From: Gemmatimonadota bacterium
GTDB taxonomy: Bacteria; JAAXHH01
Assembly: GCA_009838645.1 (NCBI GenBank)
Contig: VXRC01000047.1
Location: 1-64,000 of the forward strand
Reading direction: 5' to 3'
DNA: 64,000 nt
The notes under the pieces were generated by a model. The model was not told the DNA's origin. It saw nothing but the letters and a program-made list of their open reading frames with translations, and ran no database searches. Both the position numbers and the translations under genes were made by a program. This document shows, one piece after another, positions 2,959 to 21,403 of the stretch (position 1 is its first letter; the number at the start of each line of letters is the position of its first letter).

Positions 2959-4158
2959 TCATTCCTTACAGCACAACGAAGAGAAGACCTTCAAATAACC
3001 ATCTGTTTGAATATCAAGAGAGTATGTGCTGACAACATGCTCTCTGGCAGCCTTCCCCATACGTCTTCTGAGTTCAGAATCTGACAAAATCCTGATAATC
3101 CTTTCAGCAATTTGATCTGTGTTTCCAACATCGGCATAGTAACCTCCAATGCCGTCCTCGAAAACCTCCTGCATGCCTTCTGTTCGTGTAGCCACTACCG
3201 GCGATTCACATGCCATTGCTTCCGCTATGCCCAACCCGAATCCCTCGCTGATACTGGTCATTACACATACAGAGGACAGAGAATAAAGGGCCGGCATATC
3301 CTCGCTTGAGGTTTCACCTAAAGCAAAAACCACGTGATCGTTCAGTCCCATGCGATCAGACATATTCAACAGATACTCATGATATGGACTGATCGTACCC
3401 ATTTCATGAAATACGCTTCCATTTCCTGTAATCAACAATGTCGCCTTGTCGTACGATCTATGTACCTTCTCGAATGCTTCGATGAGTATGTGGATACCTT
3501 TCATCGGATCGAGACGAACTGGACTGGTAATCAACTCCTCGGACACGTTTTTAAGAAAGCCGTACTTCATATTCTTGTGTGTCGGTTTAAAGAAATCGGT
3601 GTCCACTCCATTGTAGATGTTGATCATCTCGAGATCATACAACGCTCTGGCTTTCTCCTGCATGTATCTTGAGACACTGACGAAGGCATTCGCATTGCTG
3701 TTCAGAACTTCTTCAAAATCCGGACTTGACTTGTCCGGAATACCTGGAAGTACAGCAACAAGCGGTATCTGACACGTTTTTTTTATAATTCCTCCCACTA
3801 TGCCCGGAACCACGCCAAAGGTACAAATGAGATCAGCGGACTGTATCAACTGTGCCCAGTCTGAAGCCGAACGTTTGTAAAATGCCAAAGGGATGGAAAG
3901 GTCCTGAAGTGGATCGTCCCGGTCAGGTCTGGATGAAGGAACCTTGAAACGATAAACCTCGATGGGATGGGCATTGGGGCTTTTTAACAATTCTTTTTGA
4001 GGGGACTCACTGTTTTCACCAGAGATCGATAGTATCGATACTCTATGACCTCTGCGGGTGAAGCCCATTGCACAATCGTATATTTGCCTTTCCAGTCCAC
4101 CTACTTGAGGCCAGAATCCGTGACCTATTACGGCTATACGCATGGCTGTGTCCACCAT
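2959..4158 (-). CDS. GT4-family glycosyltransferase
   Basis: A 399-residue retaining GT-B glycosyltransferase. The N-terminal domain opens with IGHGFWPQVGGLERQI, the usual GT4 acceptor-side motif. The C-terminal donor domain has EGFGLGIAEAMACESPVV (the E-x7-E motif), then TEGMQEVFEDG. There is no signal peptide or membrane helix, so it is cytoplasmic and would use a nucleotide-sugar donor. It ends the run of AT-rich genes that begins at the S41 protease and lies 17 bases after the papain-fold/GT fusion, so it is probably in that operon. An ATG at 4143 is an alternative start. A sugar transferred to the peptide is the simplest reading of its position, but the acceptor is not shown by the sequence. 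Confidence 0.85.
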   Translation of the reverse strand: MVDTAMRIAVIGHGFWPQVGGLERQIYDCAMGFTRRGHRVSILSISGENSESPQKELLKSPNAHPIEVYRFKVPSSRPDRDDPLQDLSIPLAFYKRSASDWAQLIQSADLICTFGVVPGIVGGIIKKTCQIPLVAVLPGIPDKSSPDFEEVLNSNANAFVSVSRYMQEKARALYDLEMINIYNGVDTDFFKPTHKNMKYGFLKNVSEELITSPVRLDPMKGIHILIEAFEKVHRSYDKATLLITGNGSVFHEMGTISPYHEYLLNMSDRMGLNDHVVFALGETSSEDMPALYSLSSVCVMTSISEGFGLGIAEAMACESPVVATRTEGMQEVFEDGIGGYYADVGNTDQIAERIIRILSDSELRRRMGKAAREHVVSTYSLDIQTDGYLKVFSSLCCKE

Positions 4159-4175
4159 GGAAAATAAACCATCTG

Positions 4176-6500
4176 TTATGACAACAGGCCGTTATCCAGC
4201 ATGGCTTGTACGGATGGGAAAACACGATCCATTTCGATACCGTCGACGCACAAAGGACCGTTCTTATCTGGAATCCTGACTATGGAGTCCACGCCCGGGG
4301 CTACGCCTTCGTTAAACTCTCTGATCATTTCCAATGACCAGGACGTTCTGACCGATTGTCCAAAAACTGTTAGCGCGTTTATGAACTGAATGATTCGCGT
4401 CATCATGCAATCTTCTTTTTGTTTCGAATTCGTCCGGTCCATACACGGATTGGGATTCACTACCTGAGCAAGTCTGCGCCAACCGTGTTGCGCACTGACA
4501 AGGGTCTCATCGCAATATCCGGTTGCGACCATTCTGTTTACCGCATGCCGCCACCGAAGCGCGAATTGCCCGGTCAGCATCCAGATGTGGTGAATACAGG
4601 CGTCGTATATTTCCTGTGCCATCAATCGTTGCTGATTCATGCGTGAATCGGAAATGTTCTCTGCAAGTTTGAAGTAAGTCGCCAAGCCGTTGATTCCTGC
4701 TTTAACGGTCTCATTGTTTCTTTGAGTTTGTGCGATTTTCAGGTATTCCCAGGGGCTTTCGGGTTCCATGATGATTGGATAGAACAGATGTGGCATCAGT
4801 TGAAAACGTCTGAATCCCGAAATGTCTCCATCGCATTGCACGAGCCAGTCGTCATCATCCATCAGACCATGAATAGCAAGATAAGCAAGACCCAGTGTAA
4901 CAGCATAACCTTTGCCGAATCGGATATCGGGAAGGTTCAGATGGCACATCAATCGGTCCCAATCCAACCGTTGCCGTATCATCGACTCGGTGATCACCGT
5001 TACTCCACTGTCAACGATCTCCCGGGCGGTCCGCGGATGAACTCCATTATCCACGACAAAAACGTTGGATACACCAACGTGCAGTCGTAGAACCCGCAGA
5101 ATCTCCGATACGATAACGGCTCCGTCGCCTTTCAACTCTCTCAGTGGCATCAGCACTTTTACCTTACCACATTGGGTGTAACGGAGTATCTGTTTGACCC
5201 GATTGGACAGATCATCGCAAGACGGTTGATATACATCTTTCCGGACAAGCTGTCGAAGCGAGCGTTCCCGATGATGTTCTATGGAGTTGGCTACAAGTTT
5301 CATGCTATGGGTCGGCTGAGCTATGGTGAACGTGTGTCCGTGTTCAGTAGGTGATTCTGCCGAACACGCCGTGAACGGATCATCACAACACATATAGAGA
5401 GGCGATCTTTTTATGTCGCAGTACGAGTAGTAATCGGTTGACCCCTTACCAGGTTCCGAGTTGCAGCCTTCGATCAGGTTCCTGAGATTACTCAATACTC
5501 TGTATTCGCGCTCCGCAATGTCATGCAGGATATCACGGGCTTTTTTTACCAATGATACTTTCGGTTTCATGAGGCACTTTAGAAGGAGCCATCTCACATG
5601 GTTCGCCATTCTTGTTACTTCTGAATACGCTTCGAAGATGCGATAGTCCGAATCAATGTAACCATGCTCTTCCAAATACCCGATTCGCTCCGCCATGATT
5701 CTTTTATGTTCCCAAAGAACACGCAGAGGAATCGTGAGGGAATTCAGTGAACGACATTGATCCAATAAATCTGTCAGGTATGAATACACGGATACTCCCC
5801 AGATTCCAACCTCTTGAGGAACATACAGCATACGATACTTCTCAGCCGTATTTGCTGATTCCAAGTAATCCGAGAGCAATTCATACATTTGTCTGATATC
5901 GATATCGTACTTTCTACTGTGATCGGCTCTGTATAAGAAAACCTTGGGGCTTTCGTCTAACTGGTCTGCAGGATCGGTGTCATCGTTCAGTGCCTTATCA
6001 ATCACGGCTTCAAAGAGCTCACTGAACGTTATCGTTGATATATGATACTTCCATGACCTATTGTAACCGGAGATTTCAAACGTCCTGCTATTGTCGTCAT
6101 ATCCCGATACCAGTACTTCATGCAGATAATGGAATTGCTTGTATGGTGCCGTAGATGGTAAATGGAAATAATCAACGTCCAATTGCACGTGCCAATCTTC
6201 ATCGAGGCTCTGCATGACAAACTGTATGATGTCGTCGCGCCTCCGCGTGATCATGTTCTGTTCCAGGTTTTGGATCTCTAAGAATGGGCAAGAAACGAAA
6301 CATGAGTTTTTCTTCCCGCCTTTCGGTGAAAACGGGCTGACGTAGAATTTCAGGTCCCGATCGTTGTAATGATAGAGTTGGAGGAAATTACTACATATCC
6401 ACGGTGTAAACGCCATGTGCGGACGAATGACCGACAGCGGGTACATGTAGAACAGGTAAGACGTAACAGGAGGTTCTTGAACAGGGATTTGCTTTTTCAT
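4176..6500 (-). CDS. Fusion: papain-fold (BtrH-like) domain + GT-A glycosyltransferase
   Basis: 774 residues in two parts. Residues 1 to about 350 resemble the BtrH N-terminal/C39-like group of papain-fold proteins: a candidate nucleophile C36 in CSNFLQLY, and H127 in HEVLVSGYDD, the characteristic His segment. A helical stretch follows. Residues from about 460 look like a GT-A glycosyltransferase of the GT2/GT81 type: a VFVVDNG strand, FGKGYAVTLGLAYL, and the metal-binding QCDGDI. The family assignments are by eye and the second is weaker. I do not know of this exact fusion. It lies between the ABC exporter and the GT4 gene in one run of AT-rich genes. Possible jobs are acyl or peptidyl transfer by the first domain and sugar transfer by the second. 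Confidence 0.6.
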   Translation of the reverse strand: MKKQIPVQEPPVTSYLFYMYPLSVIRPHMAFTPWICSNFLQLYHYNDRDLKFYVSPFSPKGGKKNSCFVSCPFLEIQNLEQNMITRRRDDIIQFVMQSLDEDWHVQLDVDYFHLPSTAPYKQFHYLHEVLVSGYDDNSRTFEISGYNRSWKYHISTITFSELFEAVIDKALNDDTDPADQLDESPKVFLYRADHSRKYDIDIRQMYELLSDYLESANTAEKYRMLYVPQEVGIWGVSVYSYLTDLLDQCRSLNSLTIPLRVLWEHKRIMAERIGYLEEHGYIDSDYRIFEAYSEVTRMANHVRWLLLKCLMKPKVSLVKKARDILHDIAEREYRVLSNLRNLIEGCNSEPGKGSTDYYSYCDIKRSPLYMCCDDPFTACSAESPTEHGHTFTIAQPTHSMKLVANSIEHHRERSLRQLVRKDVYQPSCDDLSNRVKQILRYTQCGKVKVLMPLRELKGDGAVIVSEILRVLRLHVGVSNVFVVDNGVHPRTAREIVDSGVTVITESMIRQRLDWDRLMCHLNLPDIRFGKGYAVTLGLAYLAIHGLMDDDDWLVQCDGDISGFRRFQLMPHLFYPIIMEPESPWEYLKIAQTQRNNETVKAGINGLATYFKLAENISDSRMNQQRLMAQEIYDACIHHIWMLTGQFALRWRHAVNRMVATGYCDETLVSAQHGWRRLAQVVNPNPCMDRTNSKQKEDCMMTRIIQFINALTVFGQSVRTSWSLEMIREFNEGVAPGVDSIVRIPDKNGPLCVDGIEMDRVFPSVQAMLDNGLLS

Positions 6501-6553
6501 TTACTCATCCTGATTCCTTAAACGGCAGGGTTCATGCTTCTGATTGCAAATCT

Positions 6554-8215
6554 TTACGTGTGTACAAGATTCCCATTTTTAATCTCGAATGCGCGATCGG
6601 TTATTTCTGACACATCATCGTGCGATACACAGACGACGATTTTGTCTGTCAATTTTCGTTTTAGATAGTATTGAATCGATTGCTTAGATGGTCCGTCAAA
6701 GTGAGAAAAAGGTTCGTCAAGAACTACTATCGGGGAATCTTGAACCAGTACTCGTGCAAGTGCTATTTTCTGGCGTTGACCATCAGATACGTTCCTTCCG
6801 CCATCAGATACTACAAAATCCAGGTATGCGTATCCTTCCAGCTTATCTTCTTCAATACCTAGATCATTTAGTATGCGGACAATTTCATGGTCATTAATGG
6901 TATCGTCAAATAGCCGAATGTTCTCACGAATGGTGCCACTGAAGAGGTAGGTGTCTGAGGGCATTGCACTTATGCAATGCCGCCATTCCTGATTGTTAAA
7001 TCTTGCTATGTCGGTATCATCAATTAGTATTTTGCCTTCAGCAGGTTTTACCAACTTCAACAGCAATCTTAGAACTGTAGTTTTTCCCGTTCCATTGTTT
7101 CCATAGATAGTATTCCAACCAGTATTGAATATCGCGTTAACTTCCAAACAGGGGTTTTGGCCGTTGTAGCCAAAGACACAATTCCTGTACTCTACATGGT
7201 CGAATTTCAGCGAACCATTCGATTTTGATGATTGAGAGATCCCATCCTCCTCTTCATTCTCGTAGAATACGGAAATTCGTTGTAGTGAAGCTTTAGCCGC
7301 CAGATAGCTTTGGTATGATTGAGTTATGAAGTAAACCGGTGCGTTAAAACGATCTCTCAACGTGAGAAACGCAAACAAATATCCTACGCTCAGACTTCCC
7401 TCTACTACTAACAGTCCACCATAGCCGATAGTAATGATATACCCGATCGCCATAAGCAGCATGGTGACGGCATCGCCGCCTTGCATCCAACTGTCTCTGA
7501 TTATCGATGACCGTTTTAATGCTTGAAATCCCTTTTTTATCTTATCAAGCGACCATGCGTCGAGGTTGATTTGCCTGAGATGGATTATGTTCTGTATACC
7601 TGATGTCATCTGTTCAATACTCGTTGCGCGGTCTTCAGATACCTTCAAGTTGGAGTTTAGCGTAACGCTTCTGAACATGTACATGCGCAATCCAACGAAA
7701 GGCACAATCACGAAACTTGCTACTAACATTCTCCACTCCACGTAGCCAACAAACACTACAGCAGCAATGAATCCTAACAAACTAGTCATGGAATAGTACA
7801 AGATGGTCATGAGGAAGTTACGAATTTGTTCGGTATCCCCATCAACCCTTGCGAGAATGTCACCGGTTCCAAATTTCTGGTAAAAAGCATACCCAAGTTT
7901 GTACAGTTTTTCCGTGACGGCTTTTTTGGCGATTACTCCGACACGATTGGAAATTACGGAGGCCAGTACTCCCTGGCAAAATGACGCTGTCGCAATCAGA
8001 ACGGCTATTCCGGCAAAGTACAGACACTGTTCCTTTACAATTGACCAGTCTTGGGCGACAAGCCCCATATCAACTATTCTGGAGAAAATCAACGGTTTAA
8101 TGATGTTCAGTATCACCAGGACCGCTGCAACACAGCAAAAGCCTAACACGTGATAGACGTTTTCAATAAGCGCCCTGGGTATGAGTAGTGATTTCAACTC
8201 TTTGCTATGTACCAT
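6554..8215 (-). CDS. ABC exporter with fused membrane and ATPase domains
   Basis: A 553-residue half-transporter of the peptide/lipid exporter type, expected to work as a homodimer. Several membrane helices fill residues 1 to about 300, with helix pairs at about 20-75, 130-175 and 245-290. The ATPase domain has Walker A YGNNGTGKTTV, a degenerate signature VSDGQRQKIALARV in place of LSGGQ, and Walker B IVVLDEPFSHFD. It has no N-terminal C39 peptidase, so leader removal needs another protease: the S8 fusion, the papain-fold domain and the S41 enzyme are all candidates. Its start overlaps the end of the acyl-carrier-like gene by 11 bases, which argues for translational coupling. Confidence 0.88.
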   Translation of the reverse strand: MVHSKELKSLLIPRALIENVYHVLGFCCVAAVLVILNIIKPLIFSRIVDMGLVAQDWSIVKEQCLYFAGIAVLIATASFCQGVLASVISNRVGVIAKKAVTEKLYKLGYAFYQKFGTGDILARVDGDTEQIRNFLMTILYYSMTSLLGFIAAVVFVGYVEWRMLVASFVIVPFVGLRMYMFRSVTLNSNLKVSEDRATSIEQMTSGIQNIIHLRQINLDAWSLDKIKKGFQALKRSSIIRDSWMQGGDAVTMLLMAIGYIITIGYGGLLVVEGSLSVGYLFAFLTLRDRFNAPVYFITQSYQSYLAAKASLQRISVFYENEEEDGISQSSKSNGSLKFDHVEYRNCVFGYNGQNPCLEVNAIFNTGWNTIYGNNGTGKTTVLRLLLKLVKPAEGKILIDDTDIARFNNQEWRHCISAMPSDTYLFSGTIRENIRLFDDTINDHEIVRILNDLGIEEDKLEGYAYLDFVVSDGGRNVSDGQRQKIALARVLVQDSPIVVLDEPFSHFDGPSKQSIQYYLKRKLTDKIVVCVSHDDVSEITDRAFEIKNGNLVHT

Positions 8216-8489
8216 CAGACCCTCTTCGAGTACTGCGATTCAATTGCTCGAGAACGAGCTTGGCCATGTAATCAAAGCTTGTAAAAAACGCTTCGTTGAT
8301 ATCCTCATCATTTAACTCGATTTCGAATTCCGATTCGATAAGAAGAACGAATTCTATGGCCTGTATCGAATCACTTGCAAGATGATTGAGAACCACAGTT
8401 TCTCGATCTTCTTGTGCAACATTCAAGGTACCGCCAAGAAACGTATCGGTAAGCTCGTATAGATTTGTCTTAATCTCGTCTTTCGTCAT
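8205..8489 (-). CDS. Acyl-carrier-like protein of a peptide maturation system
   Basis: A 94-residue acidic helical protein with an acyl-carrier fold signature. LASDSIQAIEFVLLIESEF places D40-S41 where carrier proteins have their DSL phosphopantetheine site, followed by the usual helix and the acidic IELNDEDI segment. No NRPS, PKS or fatty-acid gene lies nearby. Small carrier-related proteins are a recognised part of Clostridium Cys-rich peptide clusters with the CcpM radical-SAM enzyme (TIGR04069, from memory). It overlaps the ABC exporter gene and follows the S8 fusion by 15 bases. Whether it is loaded with a phosphopantetheine arm, and what it carries, cannot be read from the sequence. Confidence 0.8.
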   Translation of the reverse strand: MTKDEIKTNLYELTDTFLGGTLNVAQEDRETVVLNHLASDSIQAIEFVLLIESEFEIELNDEDINEAFFTSFDYMAKLVLEQLNRSTRRGSDGT

Positions 8490-8504
8490 GATACCTATAC
8501 TTTC

Positions 8505-10403
8505 TCACGAGAATTCAGCCTCTATAGTGCGCAGAATCAAACCATCGTTTTTGTGATCCATGATATCTATGACTGGCTTGTTCAGGGCCTCTTCAAATCT
8601 CGTTCGACAGTCGTTTTTTTCATCTTCATCCAGAGTGAGGTGTTTAGCAACGGTTTGTCCGGTCTCGGTTTTTTTGAAAACACGTTTCCAAGGGGTCATA
8701 ACAAAGAATATGGGACTTGCCTTGCAGAATACACTAACGACCTTGCAGACGTTGCGTATATACCCAATCGAGTCCTGCGGATTGACTGCGCAGATAAAGC
8801 GATCAGGCATTGTCCCTAATAAAAAACTCAGTGTGTCGATCTCGTTCCCGATGATTAAGTCTCTGTTCCCGCGTGGAATGGTTGTACCCTGAGTGCCCGT
8901 CAGAATCGCGTGTGGGCGCTGAAACTCTGATACTCCTTTCAGATATGTACGTAAAAAAAACTGCCACTTTTCCTGTTCAATATGCGCCGCAGACTGATAG
9001 CCATAAGGGAAAGTCATGTTCGCACCAAAAAGTTCGCCCTGCGGCTCAGAAGACAAGTATGAAACTCTGTATCCTGCGTTTTCCATAATCCTCTTAACAC
9101 GAAGTTGTGTGGTGAACTTGCCTTGTCGGTTGCTTGTACCGATCACCCCCAATACAGGTACTTTAACTGGTGGTAGATATCTGAACTCCATAACATCATC
9201 GAACAGTTTCTGGGTAACGCCCGGGACATATACTTTACCGTTATAGAGGTGGTTACGCATATGTTCCTGCAATTCTGATTGTAAGCGAAAATCAAATGCA
9301 AAGATGTTTTTGTTCTCCAGCAGGCACTTATCTACAAGTGTACGACCAAATCTGATGTTCGATTCAAACATCTGATCCGAGTAGTATCCCAAGACCAGCG
9401 TGTCAAAACCTTCCATGGAATTCGAACTCGGACCCGTTGCTGGCGAAAGGGATTCTTCTTTTTTCGATATGGAAAGTTTCCTGAAATCAACATTCCTCGG
9501 ATAGTCCAGATACATCGTGACTGGAAACGAGGCATAGTCAGGTAATTCGACAAATGCCCGCATTTCTTTCTCGCTAGCAGGAAATACCCCGAGTCTGCCG
9601 ACCCATCTCTGATCTATTCTGCTACTAAAAACCCGTTTTCGTACGGCCACCAATTCACTGCTTCGTACTGCGGGGAAATCGATTTGCCTTGTCTGTCTTC
9701 CAAACTGTATTGGTTTGATATTGCGGTCCGCGTTATCGACCAGATGTCTTTTTAAAGTGGTCAGATCCATTTTACTATGCGATTCGAGGATTGCTGCGAC
9801 TATGCCAGTAAAATAGGCGCACGCAAGGCTGGTACCGCTTCGTATTCGGTACCCGCCATCGATAGTCGCCACACGTTGAATCGTACCTTTTGCGATAAAC
9901 TCGATGGGCGAATCTGGTATGTAACCGTGTTTTCTGAAATCAGGGACGTTACCCCAGGTGACACCGAAGGTTGATGGATAGCAGGCGGGGTAACAATCGT
10001 TATTGGAGTTGTGATGACCAGCAGCAACTATGACGATATTTCGATAGTGGGCTTCATCGCATACGCGCAATAACTCTTCAGAGGGTGAATTGGTAAGAAT
10101 GCCAAGTGAGAGATTAATGATGTCAATTGAGTTTTCGATACACCATGAGATAGCGGTACTTAGTGTTTTCTCTGATGAAACCAACTCATTCTGGAAGATT
10201 TTAACAGCTACATATTCTGCCTCACGGCAAAACTTGTAGATGATCGCTGCGGAGGCGGTTCCGTGTCCCAGGCGGTCCTCAAAGTCCATGACGGTGGAAA
10301 CGCGCCCACACTCGTCCTGTACGAAAGATACTCCGGAACAGCGGAGGTTCTCTAAACGCGGATGCTCCGCATCGATACCACTGTCCACCACTGCGATTCT
10401 CAT
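8505..10403 (-). CDS. S8 subtilase fused to P-loop peptide-maturation domain
   Basis: 632 residues counted from the ATG at 10403; an in-frame TTG at 10418 would add five. Residues 1 to about 230 are a subtilase with D7 in AVVDSGID, H47 in GHGTASA and S192 in SGTSLAC. The oxyanion asparagine of the usual AAGN is replaced by His (AAGHHNSNN). No signal peptide or propeptide is seen, so it should be cytoplasmic and suited to cutting a leader peptide before export. From about residue 330 a second domain begins, with a P-loop GTSNRQGKFTT (422-432). It resembles, by memory only, the TIGR04066/DUF1611-like 'peptide maturation system' proteins of Clostridium Cys-rich peptide clusters. Its genes on either side are the permease and the carrier-like protein. 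Confidence 0.75.
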   Translation of the reverse strand: MRIAVVDSGIDAEHPRLENLRCSGVSFVQDECGRVSTVMDFEDRLGHGTASAAIIYKFCREAEYVAVKIFQNELVSSEKTLSTAISWCIENSIDIINLSLGILTNSPSEELLRVCDEAHYRNIVIVAAGHHNSNNDCYPACYPSTFGVTWGNVPDFRKHGYIPDSPIEFIAKGTIQRVATIDGGYRIRSGTSLACAYFTGIVAAILESHSKMDLTTLKRHLVDNADRNIKPIQFGRQTRQIDFPAVRSSELVAVRKRVFSSRIDQRWVGRLGVFPASEKEMRAFVELPDYASFPVTMYLDYPRNVDFRKLSISKKEESLSPATGPSSNSMEGFDTLVLGYYSDQMFESNIRFGRTLVDKCLLENKNIFAFDFRLQSELQEHMRNHLYNGKVYVPGVTQKLFDDVMEFRYLPPVKVPVLGVIGTSNRQGKFTTQLRVKRIMENAGYRVSYLSSEPQGELFGANMTFPYGYQSAAHIEQEKWQFFLRTYLKGVSEFQRPHAILTGTQGTTIPRGNRDLIIGNEIDTLSFLLGTMPDRFICAVNPQDSIGYIRNVCKVVSVFCKASPIFFVMTPWKRVFKKTETGQTVAKHLTLDEDEKNDCRTRFEEALNKPVIDIMDHKNDGLILRTIEAEFS

Positions 10404-10446
10404 TCCGCAAACCCCCAAAGAGGCGGCGCACTACACGCCGCGAAGT

Positions 10447-12876
10447 CTATTCGTTCTTTAGTATGTCTACAGGGTTGGCAGAAGAAGCAGGCAGGACATG
10501 GTATAATGTCGTCAATACGACAATGACGAGCGTACTCACTCCTGCCGCCAGAAAAATGACAGGATCCAATTCGATTCTGTACGCGAAGTCCTGAATCCAC
10601 TGATTGAGGATTAAATAGGCAATCGTCCAGGCTGCTATGACCGAGACGGTGACAAGCAATACGAAGTCCCGTAGCAGCAACCAGGTCGCGTTCCGGAACG
10701 AGGCGCCCAAGACCTTTCGTACACCGATCTCCTTCATCCGACGGTTTACGACTATTCTGGTTATACTGAACAGTCCTATACAGGTGATGATAGTCGTCAT
10801 TAAGGAAAAAACACCAATTACCGTGCTCGTCCTGAATTCGGACTGATACAGATCGGTGAAACTGTCTTCGATAAACGAATATGTGAACGGCCGCTGCGGG
10901 ATCAGGTCCCGCCAGATCATGGCCACGTCGTTTATCGTTTGCGTTCGCGTCCCGGGATACAGCTGGACCGACAACATGGGAAGTTCCGTCGGCAGGAAGA
11001 AGAATCGGGGCGGAGTCTGACCGAGATACATCGCGAGAGGTTCAATTGGGTTGTGCAACGACGTCCAATGAAAATCGTCGATTACGCCGACGACCCGTCC
11101 GAATTCGCCTGAGAAAGGGAATCCCATCTGTTGACCGATCGGTTCCTGCCATCCCATTTGCCTGACCAAACTCCGGTTCACGACGAACTCCAGCGGATTA
11201 TCCGAACCGGAAGAAGAAAACGCACGTCCCTCCGACACGGGCAGGTTATACAGGCTCATGAAGTTATCGTCTACCGGCAACAAGTGTACCTGCGGTTGAT
11301 CCTGGCGATCCCTGAATCTCATATTCATGTGCATCCTGGTTGTACCGCCAAACTCCCATCCTGACGCGGCCGTTTCAGCAACACCGGCGAATTTTCCAAA
11401 CTCCTGCTTAGCCGTTCTGTAGTCGATATCAGTGCCGATAGGCAGCAGCATGATGTTCTGCTTCTCGAATCCAATATCTTTCGTTTCCATGAAACGGGCT
11501 TGTTCTACGATGAACGTCGCGCACGTTACCAGAAGTGTCCATATGGTCATTTGGACAGCGATGTAAGCATATTGAACGGATTTTCTGTAGTTTCCTTTGC
11601 CGGAAGTTCGAAGTAGAGAGAACGGTTTTTGAAACCATAGCTTCCATGACGACGCTAAGCCGATAACAGTGCTATGAGCTACAACCACGCAAATGGAGAC
11701 AACTCCGATAAGGATGTAATCCATCAGTGTAAACAACTCCGGTTTTAGCTCGATCAGATCCAAATCGTTCAAAAACGAAACAACTATGAACATTAAGGAG
11801 AAAGTACCAATCATTGCGCATAGATAGACGACAATGGATTCGATGATTACTGGAAGAACGAGCTGTATTCGGTCGGCGCCTAAAGCCGCCCGTACGCCCA
11901 TTTCCCTGAACCGGGACGTTAACTTGGCCGAGGATAAGTTGATCAAGTTGAAAGTCGACACTAACAGGACAAGTACCGCGATGGCAATCAACTGATTGAT
12001 ATCCTCGATATCGCCTTTGTTCCAGTTCACCCACCGGACCTGATCTTCTCCACCGATGTACGCCGAATACAGATGGACTTCGGAAAGAGGTTGCAGAACG
12101 AACGCTGTGACGTTTGTTCCCAAACCATTTTGGCCACGGTCTCTGACTAACGACAGCGCTTTGGATTCTATCTCGGATGTTTCCGAATCATTGCGAAGCA
12201 ACAGGTAGGTGTAGGTATTGCCGCTGTTCCATCCCTGTTCCAAACCTGTAGTAAGCGATTGAACGGTCAGATAAGAAATCAGTAGTTCGAACTTTATTGA
12301 TGAATTCCAGGGGGGAGTTTCTACAACTCCTTCTACCGTGTAAGTCTCATCATGCCATTGAATAGTCTTGCCGACAGGATTTTGTTCGCCGAAGATCCGT
12401 TGAGCCAGCGTCGAGGTTACAACCGCTGTAAAAGGCGACTTCAGCAAATCATCCGGCTTGCCCTGTACGAGTTTGAAATCGAACATGCTCAGTATTGATG
12501 GGTCCGCAAAGAACGACTCCGTGATTTCAAACAACTCGTTGTCGGCATGTATGAACATCTTTTCCGTAGTAATGGCGCTACGCAACCGGGCATAGTCAGT
12601 TACTTCGGGAAGCTCGTCTCTGAGCAACGGTCCGATCGGAGACATTACACCGCTTATGAAGTAAGGGTCTGATTCCTGCAATTGGACCTGGAGAATAGCT
12701 CGATGTATCTGATCCCTTTTCGTATGGAAGTCATCGAACTGCATGCTCTGGTATGCATACATTCCTATTATCAGGACCGAACCGAAACCGAGAGCAAGCC
12801 CCAGGATGTTTAATACCGAATATACTCTGTTATGATTTATCCAGCGTATTGAATGAGTTATGTGTTTATAGAACAT
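10447..12876 (-). CDS. FtsX/MacB-type ABC permease
   Basis: 809 residues in the double-FtsX layout common in Bacteroidota-like genomes. An N-terminal helix (NILGLALGFGSVLIIGMYAY) precedes a periplasmic MacB-PCD domain (about 45-280). A first set of helices lies around 285-400, a helix near 430, a second periplasmic domain (about 455-670), and a last helix trio from about 680. The motifs FREMGVRAALGADR and MKEIGVRKVLGASFRNA are the paired FtsX repeats. The gene has no adjacent ATPase. The MacB/LolD ATPase and HlyD adaptor at 678-2766 are the likely partners, under a promoter with the same operator. It lies inside the maturation operon between the radical-SAM gene and the S8 fusion. Confidence 0.9.
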   Translation of the reverse strand: MFYKHITHSIRWINHNRVYSVLNILGLALGFGSVLIIGMYAYQSMQFDDFHTKRDQIHRAILQVQLQESDPYFISGVMSPIGPLLRDELPEVTDYARLRSAITTEKMFIHADNELFEITESFFADPSILSMFDFKLVQGKPDDLLKSPFTAVVTSTLAQRIFGEQNPVGKTIQWHDETYTVEGVVETPPWNSSIKFELLISYLTVQSLTTGLEQGWNSGNTYTYLLLRNDSETSEIESKALSLVRDRGQNGLGTNVTAFVLQPLSEVHLYSAYIGGEDQVRWVNWNKGDIEDINQLIAIAVLVLLVSTFNLINLSSAKLTSRFREMGVRAALGADRIQLVLPVIIESIVVYLCAMIGTFSLMFIVVSFLNDLDLIELKPELFTLMDYILIGVVSICVVVAHSTVIGLASSWKLWFQKPFSLLRTSGKGNYRKSVQYAYIAVQMTIWTLLVTCATFIVEQARFMETKDIGFEKQNIMLLPIGTDIDYRTAKQEFGKFAGVAETAASGWEFGGTTRMHMNMRFRDRQDQPQVHLLPVDDNFMSLYNLPVSEGRAFSSSGSDNPLEFVVNRSLVRQMGWQEPIGQQMGFPFSGEFGRVVGVIDDFHWTSLHNPIEPLAMYLGQTPPRFFFLPTELPMLSVQLYPGTRTQTINDVAMIWRDLIPQRPFTYSFIEDSFTDLYQSEFRTSTVIGVFSLMTTIITCIGLFSITRIVVNRRMKEIGVRKVLGASFRNATWLLLRDFVLLVTVSVIAAWTIAYLILNQWIQDFAYRIELDPVIFLAAGVSTLVIVVLTTLYHVLPASSANPVDILKNE

Positions 12877-12998
12877 CAGAGGCCTCTTCTCTTTGATGTA
12901 TCTCTGTATACTCGGAACTCTTCTTTAGGATCGTCGCATGGATGTGCTTGACCCCGTAACATGGACCAAAGGCCGTTGAGTGACACGAAAAAGAGCAC

Positions 12999-14486
12999 TC
13001 ACAATTCCTCACATTCTTTAAGTGCAGGATCCACGGACGTTCCGATTTCGGCTAAGGACTGAATATCATCCGGACGGTCAATCGAATGGAGATATTGGTC
13101 ACGAAGCATCCACTTTAGAGAATACTTCCAGTCGGGACACGCTTCCGGTGGGTCTTTGTGAGGGCAGGTCATTTCACAAACGGGTAGTATTTTACAGTCT
13201 CGGCAAATGGGCCTTGTGAACTGATCCCAGTTCGTGAACAGGGTACGATTCTTGTCATGAATGTTGTATTCATCGGTAATATGGTGTGAACGAGTATTGG
13301 GATCATTCGCGTATTCCCAACATTGTTGAATGTAACCATCCGGATCTATGACCATGCTGTAGGGATGGGAAGCCGCACCACACAAGTGCATCGTGGCTTT
13401 AGGGACTTTGAATTCTTTCTTGGCTTTTGGAAGGTCGTTCGTCTCTGCAAACACATTGTAGTGTTTCCATTTCAATTCACGGAATTCTTCCACTACCCTT
13501 GCGAATTCTCTTCTGTGGTAATATTGCGACATACTATCATGGACGCCCGATCCTTCATACGGCACTTCTTTGAAAGCCAAATAAGGGCTGAATTCCTCAT
13601 GACGTTGCGGCCAGATTCCGCGACGTTCCAAGTCATCAAGAAGTTCCTCCAGATGAGGATACATGACCTTATCCGTGTTGATTCGTATTGTAGCGAAAAT
13701 CTCCGATTGGGGTTTGTTTGAGAGATTGTCTAATATGAGGTCGTAGCTACCCAGATCGTTATTGGCATCCGGGGCGACACCTGTTGGGACAATAGGCCTC
13801 AACATATTGTGCGTATCTCTATAACCATCTAATGTTACCTGTACTTGTTCCACGTGAGACCGCAACAGTATCTCCCAAACTTCACTGGTGAGATTTACGC
13901 CATTTGTAATGACACTTGAACTATAAAGCAGACCATATTGCTTAGATACTTCGATCAGTTTTTCTGAATATCGATCTATTATCTCTGGCCTCAACAACGG
14001 TTCACCGCCGAACCAGGTTACTTTGATACCTTCGAATTCCTCTACTAGTTTACTGGAGTTGATTTCGCGATGGAGAAACTCAATTACCCCATCTATTGTT
14101 TTGTCTTTCATAAACTTGTTCCATGGCTTCTCGCCTTCGAAGCAGTAGGAGCATCCCATATTGCATGAAAGAGTAGGAGTTATAGTTATGTAAAAGTTCG
14201 CCTTCTTGAAACTCCACTCGCGTTCTCTGATAATCCGTTGATGAATGTCTTCCTTTTCGTCTAAATCATGTCGTACAACTATCCCATTGTCCCATAAGGC
14301 AGAGATAAAATGTTGGTGTTCTTTCTGGTCAATCGAGGAAATTACACCAGCTTTTCTCCAATCGTATAACAATTGCGCTTCGGATGGTTCTAGCTCCAAG
14401 AGTGAGTTTGAACGCGTGTTGTATACCAGATGTACGTTCTTTTCCTGCACAGGAATGATCATATTGTAGAAACTTGTCTTTAACAT
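12999..14486 (-). CDS. Radical SAM/SPASM peptide maturase
   Basis: 495 residues. Residues 1 to about 90 form a PqqD/RRE-like peptide-binding region ending in a WDNGIVV strand. The radical-SAM cluster is C108-x3-C112-x2-C115 (CNMGCSYC) with GGEP at 160-163. The C-terminal SPASM domain is complete: C369-x14-G-x4-C389, then C428-x2-C431-x5-C437-x3-C441, then C450. These would hold two auxiliary [4Fe-4S] clusters, as in enzymes that install thioether or other crosslinks on RiPPs. By memory it is nearest to the CcpM (TIGR04068) group. The start was set at ATG 14486 because GAGGAG lies seven bases upstream; a longer reading from a TTG has no site. The precursor gene lies 138 bases upstream, with a hairpin between. 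Confidence 0.93.
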   Translation of the reverse strand: MLKTSFYNMIIPVQEKNVHLVYNTRSNSLLELEPSEAQLLYDWRKAGVISSIDQKEHQHFISALWDNGIVVRHDLDEKEDIHQRIIREREWSFKKANFYITITPTLSCNMGCSYCFEGEKPWNKFMKDKTIDGVIEFLHREINSSKLVEEFEGIKVTWFGGEPLLRPEIIDRYSEKLIEVSKQYGLLYSSSVITNGVNLTSEVWEILLRSHVEQVQVTLDGYRDTHNMLRPIVPTGVAPDANNDLGSYDLILDNLSNKPQSEIFATIRINTDKVMYPHLEELLDDLERRGIWPQRHEEFSPYLAFKEVPYEGSGVHDSMSQYYHRREFARVVEEFRELKWKHYNVFAETNDLPKAKKEFKVPKATMHLCGAASHPYSMVIDPDGYIQQCWEYANDPNTRSHHITDEYNIHDKNRTLFTNWDQFTRPICRDCKILPVCEMTCPHKDPPEACPDWKYSLKWMLRDQYLHSIDRPDDIQSLAEIGTSVDPALKECEEL

Positions 14487-14525
14487 GATTGATCTCCTCG
14501 TTCTACGGTTTTGGTAACTTTCTTT

Positions 14526-14553
14526 CCCCCGGTGGTTCCTCATCCACCGGGGG
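14526..14553 (-). promoter_or_regulatory. GC-rich stem-loop between precursor and maturase genes
   Basis: A perfect 10-bp stem, CCCCCGGTGG (14526-14535) and CCACCGGGGG (14544-14553), with an 8-nt loop. It lies after the precursor stop and about 40 bases before the radical-SAM start. No U-tract follows in the direction of transcription, so it is not a plain intrinsic terminator. RiPP operons often have such a hairpin here to make more precursor mRNA than enzyme mRNA, by 3' end protection or partial termination. That role is inferred. Confidence 0.7.
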
Positions 14554-14624
14554 ACTTGGCTGGACAGATGGTGGATTGCAGTATTCAAGTTTCGGTAGGA
14601 AACTACAGAACGCGTTGAACAAAA

Positions 14625-14801
14625 TCAGAACAGTATATCCCCGTCCGATGTATCACCGGAAAGTGGATTGCATGCACCAAGCGTGCATTGCAGGGGGAGA
14701 CACGGTCCAAGATCGCACATAGCGATGGCTTCCGGTTCTAATTCATCAACATCAGAGTCCTCTTCATTTACAACGACTTGGGGCTTGATCAGGACTTTCA
14801 T
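14625..14801 (-). CDS. RiPP precursor peptide with repeated Cys decapeptide
   Basis: 58 residues, ATG at 14801, with AAAGGAG eight bases upstream. The N-terminal part (1-28) looks like a leader: a hydrophobic-basic start MKVLIKPQVVV, then a strongly acidic stretch (13-24) and EAIAM. The core has four cysteines, C29, C34, C39 and C44, exactly five apart, as two decapeptides, CDLGPCLPLQ and CTLGACNPLS, consensus C-x-L-G-x-C-x-P-L-x. The tail GDTSDGDILF is acidic. The two repeats use different codons for shared residues, so this is not a recent DNA duplication. It lies directly before a radical-SAM/SPASM enzyme. Likely products are thioether-bridged (ranthipeptide or sactipeptide), perhaps glycosylated, since two glycosyltransferases follow. 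Crosslink type and cleavage site are unknown. Confidence 0.9.
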   Translation of the reverse strand: MKVLIKPQVVVNEEDSDVDELEPEAIAMCDLGPCLPLQCTLGACNPLSGDTSDGDILF

Positions 14802-14869
14802 GATAATCTCCTTTCGAGAAACTTGAATATGACGTACACCACCTATCCAGCCGCGCTGACCAGGAGTGA

Positions 14870-16909
14870 TTATTGGTGATCTTGACGGGATTTGACCTGC
14901 CTTTCTTGATAGGGTGAAAACGAGTTTTTTCCCAGAACAGTGGTGGCTACCTTGAGCAGCTTATCGTCTCGATGTGCGAGGTCATCGACGTTATCTATAT
15001 GAACCCAGTAATCAGGTGCGATTCCTGATGCTTCAACCGATTCTCCAGAGGCTTTCAGTCTTATCATCCACGTGTTGGTGGCTATTTGATAGCCATCGGG
15101 TAGGGTTATGTAGATCAAAGCGGAATCTGTACCTTGCGTTTTGGTGTTGGAGAGCATATGCGCTTTACCCGCATATCGCATCGTATCGATGAACTCTTCA
15201 CTAGCGCATGCAGTCCGATTGTTCGCCAGAATCATCATCGGTTGGTTGAAATGGAAGACTGGATGTGGATACACGATCATGCTTTCCGTTCTACCGTCAG
15301 CCGGGGTCACAAGATGGCCGGAAACCACAGGTTGGTCTATGAAGGTCGATACGAGGCGTATAACCACTCGTACATCCCCGCCTCCATTTGATCTCAAATC
15401 GAGCACGATACCCTTTGAGTTTTGAATCTGTTCCGAATGATTTAAAAACCTGATCCAAACGTCGGGAGTCCATCTTGCAACACGGAAATAAACGATATTG
15501 TTTTCTAAGATCCTGAACTCACCGTGCGCTGGTACAAAACCGGGAGGAATTAAGATTTTTCTGTCATAGCGAATGGTTACGTTTTTAATGGTTTCTGATT
15601 CAGTCTGAACGCGGATCGTCACTCGCTCGTGCTTTTCCCTTTTCAAAATGGTGTTCAGTGCTTTGCGTCTTCTTACTGTACCGGATCCTTTGTGAATCCC
15701 GCTTTCTTTCAGAATGGCTTCCTGTATTGGAACGTTGTCTATAGAAACGATACGGTTTCCCACTAAATCGGTTAAAAGCGTATCGAAGACAGCGGCGATG
15801 TATATGTCATTCTCGATTTCGTACAAAGCAAGCGGGCTGACTTTAACGCGAGGAGAGCTCATCGGACGGGTGACAATATCAAAATGAACGTCGTTGAAAT
15901 CCGAGACCAATTGACGGATGCTGTCTTCAAACGCTTCATTCTGCCCTAACGGGAGTTTGCGTATCTCCGCAAACCTGTCTAACACCTGCGACTTGTCGAC
16001 ATTGTGGCTATCATAGAATGGATAGAGGCTTAAAATCCGCGATATGATGTCTTCTTTGAGCATACGGATAGATTTAGGCTCCGTTTTTTGGTCGTAATCT
16101 GGGACAATATAGAAATTGGAACCTGCTGACTTATCTGTTGACCGCATGTACAGAGGGGCAGTTACGACAGGCAGATTATCGGAGATCGAGAAGATGTCCC
16201 GAGGGACCAACCGACTTGTTTTCTTTTTGACTATCGGATCGAACAAGGGATGGTTGTACTCAATTTTCGATTGCTTCCAGTTTGCTATTTTCAAGTCGCC
16301 AACAACGAATTCGAATTTTTCAGATCGCGGGAAAACCACAATCGTAATTTCGTCAATTTCATTTACTTGATTGTACTCAAAGACAGAAGAGGAGGAATTA
16401 CGTGTTCTTTCCCCGCCTATCCTTGTCAGCGTACCAATCGCGTCGATTTTAGGTATTTGATACCGTTCAAACGGAATCGAGTAGCTTTTCTTATACCACC
16501 CGTTATCGATTTTGGAGTGGATGTAAACTGAATATCGGGTGACCTGTTCAACATACATTCGTTGAAAAAGTATCGATTCCTGCATAGTACACTTAACAGG
16601 ACTTTCAAATGAATGTGTCCATGCGTAAAATGTTGCACCGGGAGATAAATCAGCCCTGATCTCCACTGGAAGGTTAGTAGAACCGAATAGGTGAAATCCT
16701 GAGGTGACAACTGAGTCATCGGGAAAATAAACAGGGAAATAGTATCCAGATTCGGGGACTATGCTATCCTTTAAATCTCTCGCTGAGAACAAGACCTCGG
16801 AAGTCTTAAAACTATCGGTTAAGACTCGCCAACCAGCCGAAGCAGTTTGTGGCATCAAAATCAATGCAATTAAAACGATTTTATTTAGATAAGTTTGGCT
16901 GGAGTTCAT
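14870..16909 (-). CDS. Secreted S41-family (tail-specific) peptidase
   Basis: 679 residues with a signal peptide (1-25, ending TASAG), so periplasmic or outer. Residues about 30-270 are a beta-rich region I do not recognise. The C-terminal half is an S41 peptidase: NDVHFD (H342) matches the catalytic His segment, DLRSNGGG (504-511) is the S41 landmark, and S570 in NRTACASEEF is the expected nucleophile with an adjacent Glu. The lysine of CtpA-type enzymes is not obvious, so a Ser-His-Glu arrangement is more likely. It is the first gene after operator B and lies 68 bases before the precursor gene. It may trim the exported peptide or protect the producer by degrading it; neither is shown. Confidence 0.85.
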   Translation of the reverse strand: MNSSQTYLNKIVLIALILMPQTASAGWRVLTDSFKTSEVLFSARDLKDSIVPESGYYFPVYFPDDSVVTSGFHLFGSTNLPVEIRADLSPGATFYAWTHSFESPVKCTMQESILFQRMYVEQVTRYSVYIHSKIDNGWYKKSYSIPFERYQIPKIDAIGTLTRIGGERTRNSSSSVFEYNQVNEIDEITIVVFPRSEKFEFVVGDLKIANWKQSKIEYNHPLFDPIVKKKTSRLVPRDIFSISDNLPVVTAPLYMRSTDKSAGSNFYIVPDYDQKTEPKSIRMLKEDIISRILSLYPFYDSHNVDKSQVLDRFAEIRKLPLGQNEAFEDSIRQLVSDFNDVHFDIVTRPMSSPRVKVSPLALYEIENDIYIAAVFDTLLTDLVGNRIVSIDNVPIQEAILKESGIHKGSGTVRRRKALNTILKREKHERVTIRVQTESETIKNVTIRYDRKILIPPGFVPAHGEFRILENNIVYFRVARWTPDVWIRFLNHSEQIQNSKGIVLDLRSNGGGDVRVVIRLVSTFIDQPVVSGHLVTPADGRTESMIVYPHPVFHFNQPMMILANNRTACASEEFIDTMRYAGKAHMLSNTKTQGTDSALIYITLPDGYQIATNTWMIRLKASGESVEASGIAPDYWVHIDNVDDLAHRDDKLLKVATTVLGKNSFSPYQERQVKSRQDHQ

Positions 16910-17118: not shown

Positions 17119-17751
17119 TTAATCTGTATCGATCAGACCAATTTTGATCGCTACGCGGATCAGTTCGGGTAGACTGTGCACGTCAAATTTCGACATCAGG
17201 TTAATACGATGGTTTTCGACGGTCTTTACGCTGATATGCAACTTACCTGCAATCTGGCGATTGGTGTGTCCTTTTGAGATAAACTTCAGGATCTCACTCT
17301 CTCGGCGAGTAAGTTTCGGCGTGGTTCCGAGAGTAGGTTGCTTGAATGCATTCTCGTCTTGCACCTTGATGTGAGGACGGTAAGTGCCCCCACGGCAAAC
17401 GGCATGGATGGCTCCTACCAACTCCATACTGGTTGATTTCTTGAGTACGTAGCCTTTGGCTCCGCTTTCCTGGGATTTCCGGACCAGCACAGGGTCGGAA
17501 TGCATTGAAAGCATAACCACCCGAATCTCCGGAAATGACGCACTGATATGTCCCGTCGCTTCGATACCGTTGATTCCAGGCATGTCGATGTCCATCACCA
17601 CAACGTCCGGGCGAAGTCGCTTCACGGTATCTATGGCGTCTTGGCCATCCGCTACCTCTGCGACTACTTGAATATCAAATTCCTTCGCAAGCAAATAACG
17701 TAGTCCCTGTCGAATCAAATGATGATCATCGGCAATAACTACTTTTATCAT
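17119..17751 (-). CDS. NarL/FixJ-family response regulator 1
   Basis: 210 residues. Receiver domain with IADDHH acidic pocket, phospho-acceptor D54 in VVVMDIDMPGINGIE, and K in VLKKST. The C-terminal LuxR/GerE helix-turn-helix spans about 145-205 (LTRRESEILKFISKGHTNRQIA, then ISVKTVENHR). The ribosome site GAGGTC precedes the ATG. It is separated from response regulator 2 by 231 bases containing operator C, so it can be transcribed alone and may control itself. Its binding domain is a good candidate to read the TAGGG palindromes. It and regulator 2 are clear paralogues serving, apparently, one kinase. Confidence 0.92.
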   Translation of the reverse strand: MIKVVIADDHHLIRQGLRYLLAKEFDIQVVAEVADGQDAIDTVKRLRPDVVVMDIDMPGINGIEATGHISASFPEIRVVMLSMHSDPVLVRKSQESGAKGYVLKKSTSMELVGAIHAVCRGGTYRPHIKVQDENAFKQPTLGTTPKLTRRESEILKFISKGHTNRQIAGKLHISVKTVENHRINLMSKFDVHSLPELIRVAIKIGLIDTD

Positions 17752-17812
17752 AATGACGACCTCGAGTGATTTTTAAGGTCAATTGTCAAATGTGTCACAC
17801 GGTGTTCAATTG

Positions 17813-17858
17813 ATAATAAACGTCGAAAATGGAAGATGTTCTATAGGGTGATTCCCTA
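17813..17858 (-). promoter_or_regulatory. Operator C: TAGGG-N5-CCCTA palindrome plus -10 for response regulator 1
   Basis: TAGGG-TGATT-CCCTA at 17844-17858 with the same CTA flank as sites A and B. In minus-strand direction the -10 hexamer TATTAT (17813-17818) follows 22 bases after the TATAG edge. The response-regulator start codon is about 62 bases farther on. Position and -10 sequence match operator A almost exactly. A weaker CCC-N7-GGG element at 17875-17888 lies just upstream and may be an accessory half-site. Confidence 0.68.
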
Positions 17859-17982
17859 CATTAAACAAGGAACTACCCTGATTATGGGATTGAAAAAGGC
17901 TACTTCTGGGGGGTGCGGCTGACTTTCGGGGAAGGCAGGCTTAAACAGGCTGGTTGAACAACATGCGGGTTACATTTCGTGG

Positions 17983-18636
17983 CTACTCGTCCAGGTAGAC
18001 AAGACGGTTCTTTACGGCCTTGAGGATAAGTTCCGGCAGGTTACGGACTTCCAACTTTTTCATAAGGGTTGCACGATGTTTCTCGACAGTCTTGGTACTG
18101 ATGTTCAAAATCTGTGCCGCGGCTTGGTTGGTATGTCCCTCGACGATCAGCTGAAGAGTCTCCCTCTCACGGGAGGATAGCCGGCTCAGTATGTTCAAAG
18201 CTTCCGACGCCGATTCCGTTTGAAAACTATTGGACAACGCGGTTTGAGCGATGGCTGGCGACAGGTAGATTTCACCCTTGCTGGCGGACCGTATGGCGAT
18301 TATGAGTTCTTCGACGACGGAGTTTTTAAGGAGATATCCTCTGGCCCCGTTTCGAAGCACTTCGTGCACCACGACTTCATCCGAGTGCATGGACAGGATA
18401 ACGACGTTTGTGTTTACGTCCAACGATTTGACCCGGCGCATGGTTTCGATACCGTTCAATAGAGGCATGGCAACATCCACGATTGCCACGTCCGGTCTTT
18501 TCTGTTGGATCAGTTTAAGTGTTTCATAACCATCTGCGGCTTCGCCGACGATTTCGATATCCTCGTACTTTTCGAGTAAGGATATGATGCTTTGGCGAAC
18601 CAGATGGTGATCGTCGGCAATGACGATACTTATCAT
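17983..18636 (-). CDS. NarL/FixJ-family response regulator 2
   Basis: 217 residues with a receiver domain (IADDHH; phospho-acceptor D54 in AIVDVAMPLLNGIE; LLKNS lysine) and a LuxR-type helix-turn-helix near 150-210 (LSSRERETLQLIVEGHTNQAAA, then ISTKTVEKHR). Its ATG overlaps the stop of the histidine-kinase gene by four bases, so the two are translationally coupled and this is the direct partner of the kinase. It is a paralogue of response regulator 1. Either or both may bind the TAGGG palindromes. The 231 bases downstream hold operator C and a T-rich stretch. Confidence 0.92.
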   Translation of the reverse strand: MISIVIADDHHLVRQSIISLLEKYEDIEIVGEAADGYETLKLIQQKRPDVAIVDVAMPLLNGIETMRRVKSLDVNTNVVILSMHSDEVVVHEVLRNGARGYLLKNSVVEELIIAIRSASKGEIYLSPAIAQTALSNSFQTESASEALNILSRLSSRERETLQLIVEGHTNQAAAQILNISTKTVEKHRATLMKKLEVRNLPELILKAVKNRLVYLDE

Positions 18637-21305: not shown

Positions 21306-21403
21306 CCTGGGCTCTCCCAGATTATGCAAGATTACTACGTTAAACCCCGATTTGAATACTGTTAATCGGAACGCAATTAAGAAGCTATTTCACCTGCACC
21401 TAT

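Follow-up and report, generated by a model that had tools for sequence, protein, structure and literature searches.

Which kind of product is encoded by a run of minus-strand genes that combines a cysteine-repeat peptide, a radical S-adenosylmethionine (SAM) enzyme, a protease, a carrier-like protein, transporters and glycosyltransferases? The locus that raises this question lies near the beginning of contig C47 in a Latescibacterota genome (3.8 Mb); the first 64,000 nt of the contig (the window) were analysed. A first-pass annotation, made from the sequence alone, had proposed a single cluster here for a ribosomally synthesized and post-translationally modified peptide (RiPP) of an undescribed class. 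Here we document the gene content of the locus, its co-inheritance, the anatomy of its precursor and the family relationships of its proteins. The locus probably directs the biosynthesis of a ribosomal peptide modified by a radical-SAM enzyme, and is a divergent relative of the FlmE/OhkG lineage that carries the helper set of the SacP23/CcpM systems.

Co-inheritance of the peptide genes

A survey of gene neighbourhoods had been suggested as a check on the first-pass annotation, and it was run in the phylum Latescibacterota: the maturase, the BtrH-like domain and the TIGR04066 profile served as queries against 16 genomes, and the subtilase fusion against 14 of these. The genes do co-occur. The cluster is present in four of the 12 species of one genus, and in four of the 16 genomes of the phylum. 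The genes for the radical-SAM enzyme, the subtilase–P-loop fusion and the BtrH-like protein were found in these same four genomes and nowhere else at full strength, with one extra weak match, to the subtilase only, in G011. Matches to TIGR04066 (44–55 bits) were detectable in exactly the four cluster genomes, and in all four the peptide genes are contiguous in a single run. For each gene pair, co-occurrence in four of 12 genus members has a probability of 1/495 (Fisher’s exact test), a value that ignores relatedness, as the genomes are not fully independent.

The clusters are of two types. Type I is found in the window and in G008, which share 79–93% identity in the maturase, the fusion protein and the ATP-binding cassette (ABC) exporter, and type II in G003 and G011 (85–93%). 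Between the types, identity falls to 44–50%, yet the BtrH-like protein retains 62–66%, more than any other cluster protein in the comparison (47–49% for the maturase). The ABC exporter of the window is 93, 45 and 44% identical to those of its relatives. In G002, a relative that lacks the cluster, fusA, a kinase gene, two regulator genes, an ABC pair, an FtsX permease gene and a membrane fusion protein (MFP) gene are consecutive with no peptide genes between them, so the peptide genes fill a variable slot in a regulator–pump locus. The interval first proposed as one RiPP cluster coincides with this variable block in the relatives.

Among cluster-bearing relatives, the nearest named is a ‘Candidatus Latescibacterota’ metagenome-assembled genome, and the second is filed as ‘Gemmatimonadetes’ SB0665_bin_8. 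In a genome-wide scan with a maturase alignment, for which two narrow peptides served as query, the only matches were two close relatives and a weak, unrelated one. No match to the maturase was found in a scan of viral contigs, and no strong match among 399 genomes of the phylum to which a Rickettsiales record belongs. Plasmid searches gave only distant maturases (24–29% identity) in other gene contexts, no homologue of the P-loop domain or of the GT-A-like domain, and, for the precursor, chance matches only.

The precursor peptide

The precursor (MKVLIKPQVVVNEEDSDVDELEPEAIAMCDLGPCLPLQCTLGACNPLSGDTSDGDILF) begins with the leader MKVLIKP, carries four Cys residues that are each five residues apart, and ends in GDILF. 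All four homologues have the invariant MKVLIKP start, four Cys and an [IV]LF end, and the rest of the core is hypervariable. The C-terminal motif is [GD][DE][IV]LF; two of the four tails (DDVLF and DDILF) are exactly of the DD(I/V)LF form, and the other two (GDILF in the window and DEILF in G003) are each one residue off. The spacing of the Cys residues is X4/X4/X4 in type I and X3/X6/X4 and X3/X4/X3 in type II, and cysteine at every fifth position is therefore not a fixed feature. There is no Arg in the cores of the four precursors.

The proposed cysteine-repeat precursor is real, as shown by a ribosome-binding (Shine-Dalgarno) site (AAAGGAGA), which lies 5–6 bases before the ATG in all four genomes, and by the pattern of codon changes between the window and G008: seven synonymous and two replacement changes in the leader, compared with four synonymous and eight replacement changes in the core. 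No other open reading frame of at least 30 amino acids ending in [DE][IVL]LF was found in the loci checked, and no NCBIfam model, including the CLI_3235 type, matched the precursor at E-values up to 5. The gap between the precursor and maturase genes contains a perfect 11-bp inverted repeat (TCCCCCGGTGG..CCACCGGGGGA; 14524–14554), which possibly stabilises the precursor transcript. A role for this hairpin as an attenuator was considered and dropped, as it lacks a T-run and no relative has a hairpin of like strength.

The radical-SAM/SPASM maturase

The maturase contains a radical-SAM domain (PF04055, 49 bits) and a SPASM domain (TIGR04085, 46 bits, above its cut-off). The radical-SAM motif CxxxCxxC (108/112/115) and a complete set of SPASM cysteines (C369/C389 in Cx14Gx4C; C428/431/437/441 in CX2CX5CX3C; C450) are invariant in the four homologues. 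The first-pass annotation had described the enzyme as having all auxiliary-cluster cysteines, which holds; alignment with the relatives moves the start of the gene from 14588 to the ATG at 14486.

For the window maturase the best profile is NF052473 (FlmE/OhkG) with 382 bits, with lower scores for TIGR04463 (216), Clo7bot (179), PapB (118) and CcpM (69). NF052473 is the top profile in all three homologues scanned (382, 374 and 404 bits), each below its cut-off of 500. The CcpM profile itself, TIGR04068, scores 68.7 in the window and 71.3 and 73.9 in the relatives, also against a cut-off of 500. Other crosslinker profiles, DynA and YhhB, match more weakly, and QhpD matches at 50 bits. These scores place the maturase beside the FlmE/OhkG (‘DD(I/V)LF’) lineage, as a divergent relative. 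The next-best families (TIGR04463, Clo7bot, CefB and PapB) are Cys-directed, and the enzyme would thus be expected to make Cys-thioether rings. PapB, for example, forms Cys–Asp/Glu thioethers with loose spacing (PMC9413430). The crosslinked product anticipated at first is in this way well supported by homology.

Putative leader protease, carrier-like protein and candidate tailoring enzymes

One protein joins a subtilase domain (PF00082, 69 bits) to a P-loop-like domain with matches to TIGR04066 (52.9 bits, cut-off 200), to PF07755 (DUF1611, 26.9 bits) and, weakly, to PDB entry 2g0t. The catalytic triad D7/H47/S192 and the P-loop-like motif GTSNRQGKFT are invariant. The QhpE profile NF049966 scores 134, 138 and 122 bits on the subtilase in the window and its relatives, under a cut-off of 165. 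The frame opens directly at the catalytic domain, with no signal and no pro-region; this start and the closeness to QhpE support removal of the leader before export. In the carrier-like protein, PF00550 scores 22.5 bits in the window (cut-off 20.8) and 13.2 in G003, and the attachment-site Ser residue is invariant in all four. The acyl carrier protein (ACP) model PRK12449 matches at 35 bits; TIGR04069 gives 15.3 bits in the window (cut-off 70) and no match at E 0.05 in the relatives. The early identification of a subtilase/P-loop fusion, an acyl-carrier-like protein and an ABC exporter has profile support for each protein. On another contig of G011 (C101, 3.2 kb; L015:290–1249), a second, stand-alone S8 subtilase adjoins an ABC ATPase fragment, and is maybe part of another RiPP locus.

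A further protein had been described as a papain-fold/GT-A fusion. Its papain half matches BtrH_N below threshold, has an invariant Cys36/His127 pair, and stands alone, unfused, in G003 and G011. It also gives a faint match to the acyltransferase profile DarH (18 bits), and a full-length homologue with 26% identity adjoins nonribosomal peptide synthetase genes in Paenibacillus. The second half is without profile support (no Pfam or PDB sequence match; PRK13915, 13 bits), and the motifs VDNG, GKGYA and CDGD make it a candidate GT-A domain. BtrH takes the acyl group borne by a carrier protein and transfers it to an amine; on this basis we propose acylation here. The first-pass annotation had missed this implication of the papain fold. 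A BtrH-like putative acyltransferase near a carrier protein gives a concrete, testable idea for the role of the ACP-like protein.

The last gene of the run encodes a GT4 glycosyltransferase, as first annotated (PF00534, 130 bits; cut-off 26.4), which is also present in G008. In the G003 and G011 clusters no GT4 enzyme was found; instead a gene for a GT1/MGT-type enzyme precedes that for the ABC protein, and the gene after the maturase encodes a pentapeptide-repeat protein. A glycosyltransferase is thus encoded in all four clusters, though from differing families, and this changing type fits either sugar tailoring or self-protection. The earlier suggestion of a possibly glycosylated product stays plausible.

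In each of its four copies the S41-family protein has Cys where the nucleophile is expected (TACASE/TTCASE; aligned to solved S41 structures), and a Ctp-type catalytic lysine is presumably absent too, as judged from a hand alignment. Among solved structures it is closest to IRBP/retinol-binding protein 3 and further S41-like proteins; the copies in the relatives are at L012:555–2570, L013:4751–6853 and L014:5770–7866. Trimming of the hydrophobic C-terminal tail by this protein is an attractive but unproven idea.

A proposed pathway and its alternatives

These observations suggest a pathway in four steps. In the first, the maturase would likely bind the MKVLIKP leader and form thioethers between the sulphurs of the four core Cys and residues nearby; PapB and QhpD do likewise, and the Clo7bot and TIGR04463 relatives are thought to. 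In the second, the acyl-charged carrier might give up its acyl group to the BtrH-like, Cys-dependent acyltransferase for attachment to the peptide or to a sugar on it, a step to which we give somewhat less than an even chance; attachment of a sugar by a glycosyltransferase has about an even chance. In the third, the QhpE-like subtilase would, in good likelihood, act in the cytoplasm to cut off the leader, in a process coupled to its P-loop domain. In the fourth, export of the product would very probably fall to the ABC protein; the [IV]LF tail at the C terminus would act as a follower that is removed later.

A more far-reaching version holds that the carrier, the BtrH-like enzyme and the P-loop domain form an acylation module, and that the product is a thioether-bridged, acylated and glycosylated RiPP. 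We regard this version as speculative and rather unlikely. If true, it would account for the ACP-like and TIGR04066 proteins in SacP23/CcpM clusters, and would have the P-loop domain work together with its fused leader protease.

Several points weigh against the assignment of the locus as a RiPP cluster of this lineage. Scores against specific RiPP families, in the window and the relatives scanned, all fall under the curated cut-offs, and only generic domains pass, the QhpE and BtrH families also being missed. For BtrH_N (PF14399) the scores are 23.6, 23.7, 27.2 (G003) and 26.9 bits, compared with a cut-off of 29.7. Structure prediction from four-sequence alignments gave a mean predicted local distance difference test score (pLDDT) of 49 for the fusion protein, too poor for evidence on the fold of its P-loop domain, and of 34 for the BtrH/GT-A-like protein, with no usable fold.

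The strongest alternative, to which we give a limited chance, is a plain sactipeptide system of the SacP23/CcpM type. Its product would be just a thioether peptide, and the genes for the acyltransferase-like, glycosyltransferase and S41 proteins would serve immunity or be unrelated passengers. The same helper set occurs in SacP23 and in Roseburia. Furthermore, macrolide-type glycosyltransferases and pentapeptide-repeat proteins can protect the producer itself, both are present in G003 and G011, and the type of glycosyltransferase varies between clusters. Such a system fits poorly with a maturase this distant from CcpM (69–74 bits, compared with 374–404 for FlmE/OhkG), and the BtrH-like protein, conserved between cluster types better than the maturase, is ill suited to the part of a passenger.

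An antimicrobial role is also not the only one to consider. The peptide could be a cofactor, a signal or a structural peptide, as in Qhp, which seems unlikely to us. The Qhp-like set of protease, radical-SAM enzyme and exporter, the flanking two-component genes and the lack of a clear immunity gene in the window’s own cluster are in its favour. Antagonism fits better with a core that is hypervariable across four species, with presence in only four of 12 and with a slot that is empty in a relative; and the kinase genes are found without the cluster. Finally, it is improbable that the maturase forms carbon–carbon or other crosslinks or epimerises, with the four Cys serving as disulphides or metal ligands: SPASM maturases catalyse many reactions and DynA and YhhB also match, but the better-scoring families act on Cys-rich or Cys-containing targets, and the Cys count is the sole constant of the cores. 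A thioether-forming RiPP pathway related to the FlmE/OhkG lineage remains the preferred account.

Organization of the locus and its surroundings

Every gene named in the first-pass annotation is an open frame at its assigned place, most with profile support (Table 1). In order of transcription, the kinase and regulator genes are followed by those for the S41 protein, precursor, maturase, permease, subtilase–P-loop fusion, carrier, ABC exporter, BtrH-like/GT-A-like protein and GT4 enzyme, and then by the MFP and MacB ATPase genes. The carrier and ABC exporter genes overlap by 11 bases.

Table 1. Features of the locus and its flanks in the 64,000-nt window.
Feature	Position	Strand	Basis or remarks
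Cluster	2959–16909	minus	Variable RiPP gene block; all named genes are open frames
MFP adaptor and MacB-type ATPase (flanking)	678–2766	minus	Genus-wide pump locus
GT4 glycosyltransferase	2959–4158	minus	PF00534, 130 bits
BtrH-like papain-fold acyltransferase domain (residues ~1–345) and domain with GT-A-like motifs (~418–774)	4176–6500	minus	PF14399, sub-threshold
ABC exporter (transmembrane and nucleotide-binding domains, without peptidase domain)	6554–8215	minus	PF00664, PF00005
Acyl-carrier-like protein, 94 aa	8205–8489	minus	PF00550, PRK12449, TIGR04069; [DE]-S-[IM] phosphopantetheine motif
S8 subtilase (QhpE-like, residues ~1–230) fused to TIGR04066/DUF1611-like P-loop domain (~335–632)	8505–10403	minus	PF00082, NF049966, TIGR04066, PF07755
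MacB/FtsX-type permease	10447–12876	minus	PF12704, PF02687
Radical-SAM/SPASM peptide maturase, 495 aa	12999–14486	minus	NF052473 best profile; SPASM cysteines
Precursor peptide, 58 aa	14625–14801	minus	Homologues in three relatives, Shine-Dalgarno site, codon pattern
S41-family protein, exported (predicted)	14870–16909	minus	PF03572, 69 bits; N-terminal signal-like segment
Two-component genes: histidine kinase and two response regulators (flanking)	17119–21329	minus	Genus locus adjoining fusA; divergent copy here

A Gram-negative-type pump had been counted among the additions to the system. The MFP/MacB-ATPase pump lies just outside the interval and belongs to a genus-wide locus, with the MFP gene present in 10 of the 12 genus genomes. 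The kinase locus is also present in genomes without the cluster. As both occur without it, the pump and the kinase/regulator genes were rejected as cluster additions. The kinase and regulators of the window (18633–21329 and 17119–18636) have 60–73% identity to their genus orthologues, and most other copies in the genus are 84–95% alike, cluster or no cluster, with one regulator in G008 (contig C22) at 66–69%. The copy in the window seems to have diverged or to have arrived with the type I cluster.

An FtsX-type permease gene lies inside all four clusters, at another position in G003 and G011; the window protein is 78% identical to that of G008 and about 27% to those of G003 and G011. The internal permease of G003 shares 99% identity with one that follows the G011 cluster, whereas the internal one of G011 differs (L013:11406–13964, L016:1971–4415), which may reflect gene conversion, rearrangement or an assembly effect. 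The contig itself opens with the 3'-terminal part of a 23S rRNA gene followed by 5S (1–352), and the assembly break thus falls at an rRNA operon.

Comparison with known systems

The claim of an undescribed RiPP class was too strong, since the maturase is nearest to FlmE/OhkG and the precursor tail is of a published type (PMC12703449). The precursors of the flm (Flagellimonas) and ohk (Ohtaekwangia) clusters end in DD(I/V)LF and were named a new orphan RiPP family with unknown products; whether the tail acts as a follower was left open (PMC12703449). The shared names suggest that these clusters have FlmE and OhkG as their maturases. They represent the nearest radical-SAM family for the three scanned homologues, and the precursors are of similar size with a D-D-(I/V)-L-F tail. 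In contrast, flm and ohk have core arginines and a peptide arginase, whereas here the core is Cys-based, the Pfam-scanned cluster proteins include no peptide arginase (PF12640), the maturases reach 374–404 of the 500 bits of the cut-off, and two of the four tails are one residue off.

A likeness to the CcpM ‘Cys-rich peptide’ systems had also been noted, and it holds for the helper set, subtilase included. The SacP23 cluster of Paenibacillus polymyxa encodes a precursor, an ABC transporter, TIGR04068, TIGR04066 and TIGR04069 proteins and a subtilase, and the whole cluster gave antimicrobial activity in B. subtilis (PMC10731318). A Roseburia cluster combines a radical-SAM enzyme with TIGR04066 and TIGR04069 proteins, a subtilase and an ABC protein (PMC4573289). 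The helper set, with its subtilase, was thus already a known kit. As in those systems, a Cys-rich precursor, a radical-SAM/SPASM enzyme, TIGR04066-like and ACP-like proteins, a subtilase and an ABC exporter occur here in one cluster. Membership of the CcpM family itself was rejected by score (TIGR04068, 68.7–73.9 against 500; TIGR04066, 44–55 against 200; TIGR04069, 15.3 against 70) and by the lack of a CLI_3235-type precursor. The fusion of subtilase and P-loop domain also sets the present cluster apart, and the BtrH-like and glycosyltransferase genes found here were not reported for the SacP23 and Roseburia clusters.

The Qhp system offers a parallel for processing. QhpD makes Cys–Asp/Glu thioethers, QhpE cuts the leader in the cytoplasm and QhpF is an ABC exporter (PMC7876137). 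A radical-SAM thioether enzyme, a cytoplasmic leader subtilase and an ABC exporter would work in the same order here, and QhpE is the best match of the subtilase. However, QhpC is an enzyme subunit and not a natural-product peptide, the QhpD match is weak, and no flavoprotein monooxygenase (QhpG) was seen in the window cluster. The Clo7bot, CefB and TIGR04463 enzymes belong to the same superfamily as the maturase over nearly its full length, with scores far below the cut-offs. Clo7bot peptides share the MKxxxKP start of the window leader, and CefA-like peptides have Cys at every fifth residue, as does the window precursor; the plasmid gene sets of these families have no annotated carrier, BtrH-like or P-loop genes. 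A Methylomagnum plasmid (L021:6870–8909) encodes a ‘Cys-every-fifth’ CefA precursor of 679 amino acids, adjoining two radical-SAM enzymes; its N-terminal region is lectin-like, and its long tail repeats Cys at every fifth residue.

For the acyl transfer step, the comparison is with butirosin and its BtrH/BtrI acyl transfer. Here too a carrier has in its vicinity a papain-fold protein that is BtrH_N-like and conserves a Cys/His pair; in contrast to butirosin, the match is under the Pfam cut-off and the substrate would be a peptide or sugar-peptide rather than an aminoglycoside. Clusters of this kind have probably already been flagged automatically and not analysed, since antiSMASH lists ranthipeptide clusters and clusters with a RiPP recognition element in sponge-associated Latescibacterota (PMC12993501).

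Judged by its sequence relationships, the system is nearest to FlmE/OhkG without reaching that cut-off, and is not CcpM by score. It differs from the known systems in the subtilase–P-loop fusion, the BtrH-like putative acyltransferase beside a carrier, the interchangeable glycosyltransferases and the S41 protein with Cys at its nucleophile position. The fusion of a subtilase to a TIGR04066-like domain is a ‘Rosetta stone’ hint that both proteins act together where they are separate. The cluster joins two orphan RiPP lines, the DD(I/V)LF precursors with their FlmE/OhkG maturases and the SacP23-type kit of ACP, TIGR04066 and subtilase, in an uncultured phylum. If the proposed pathway is right, there would be radical-SAM peptides that bear acyl and sugar groups.

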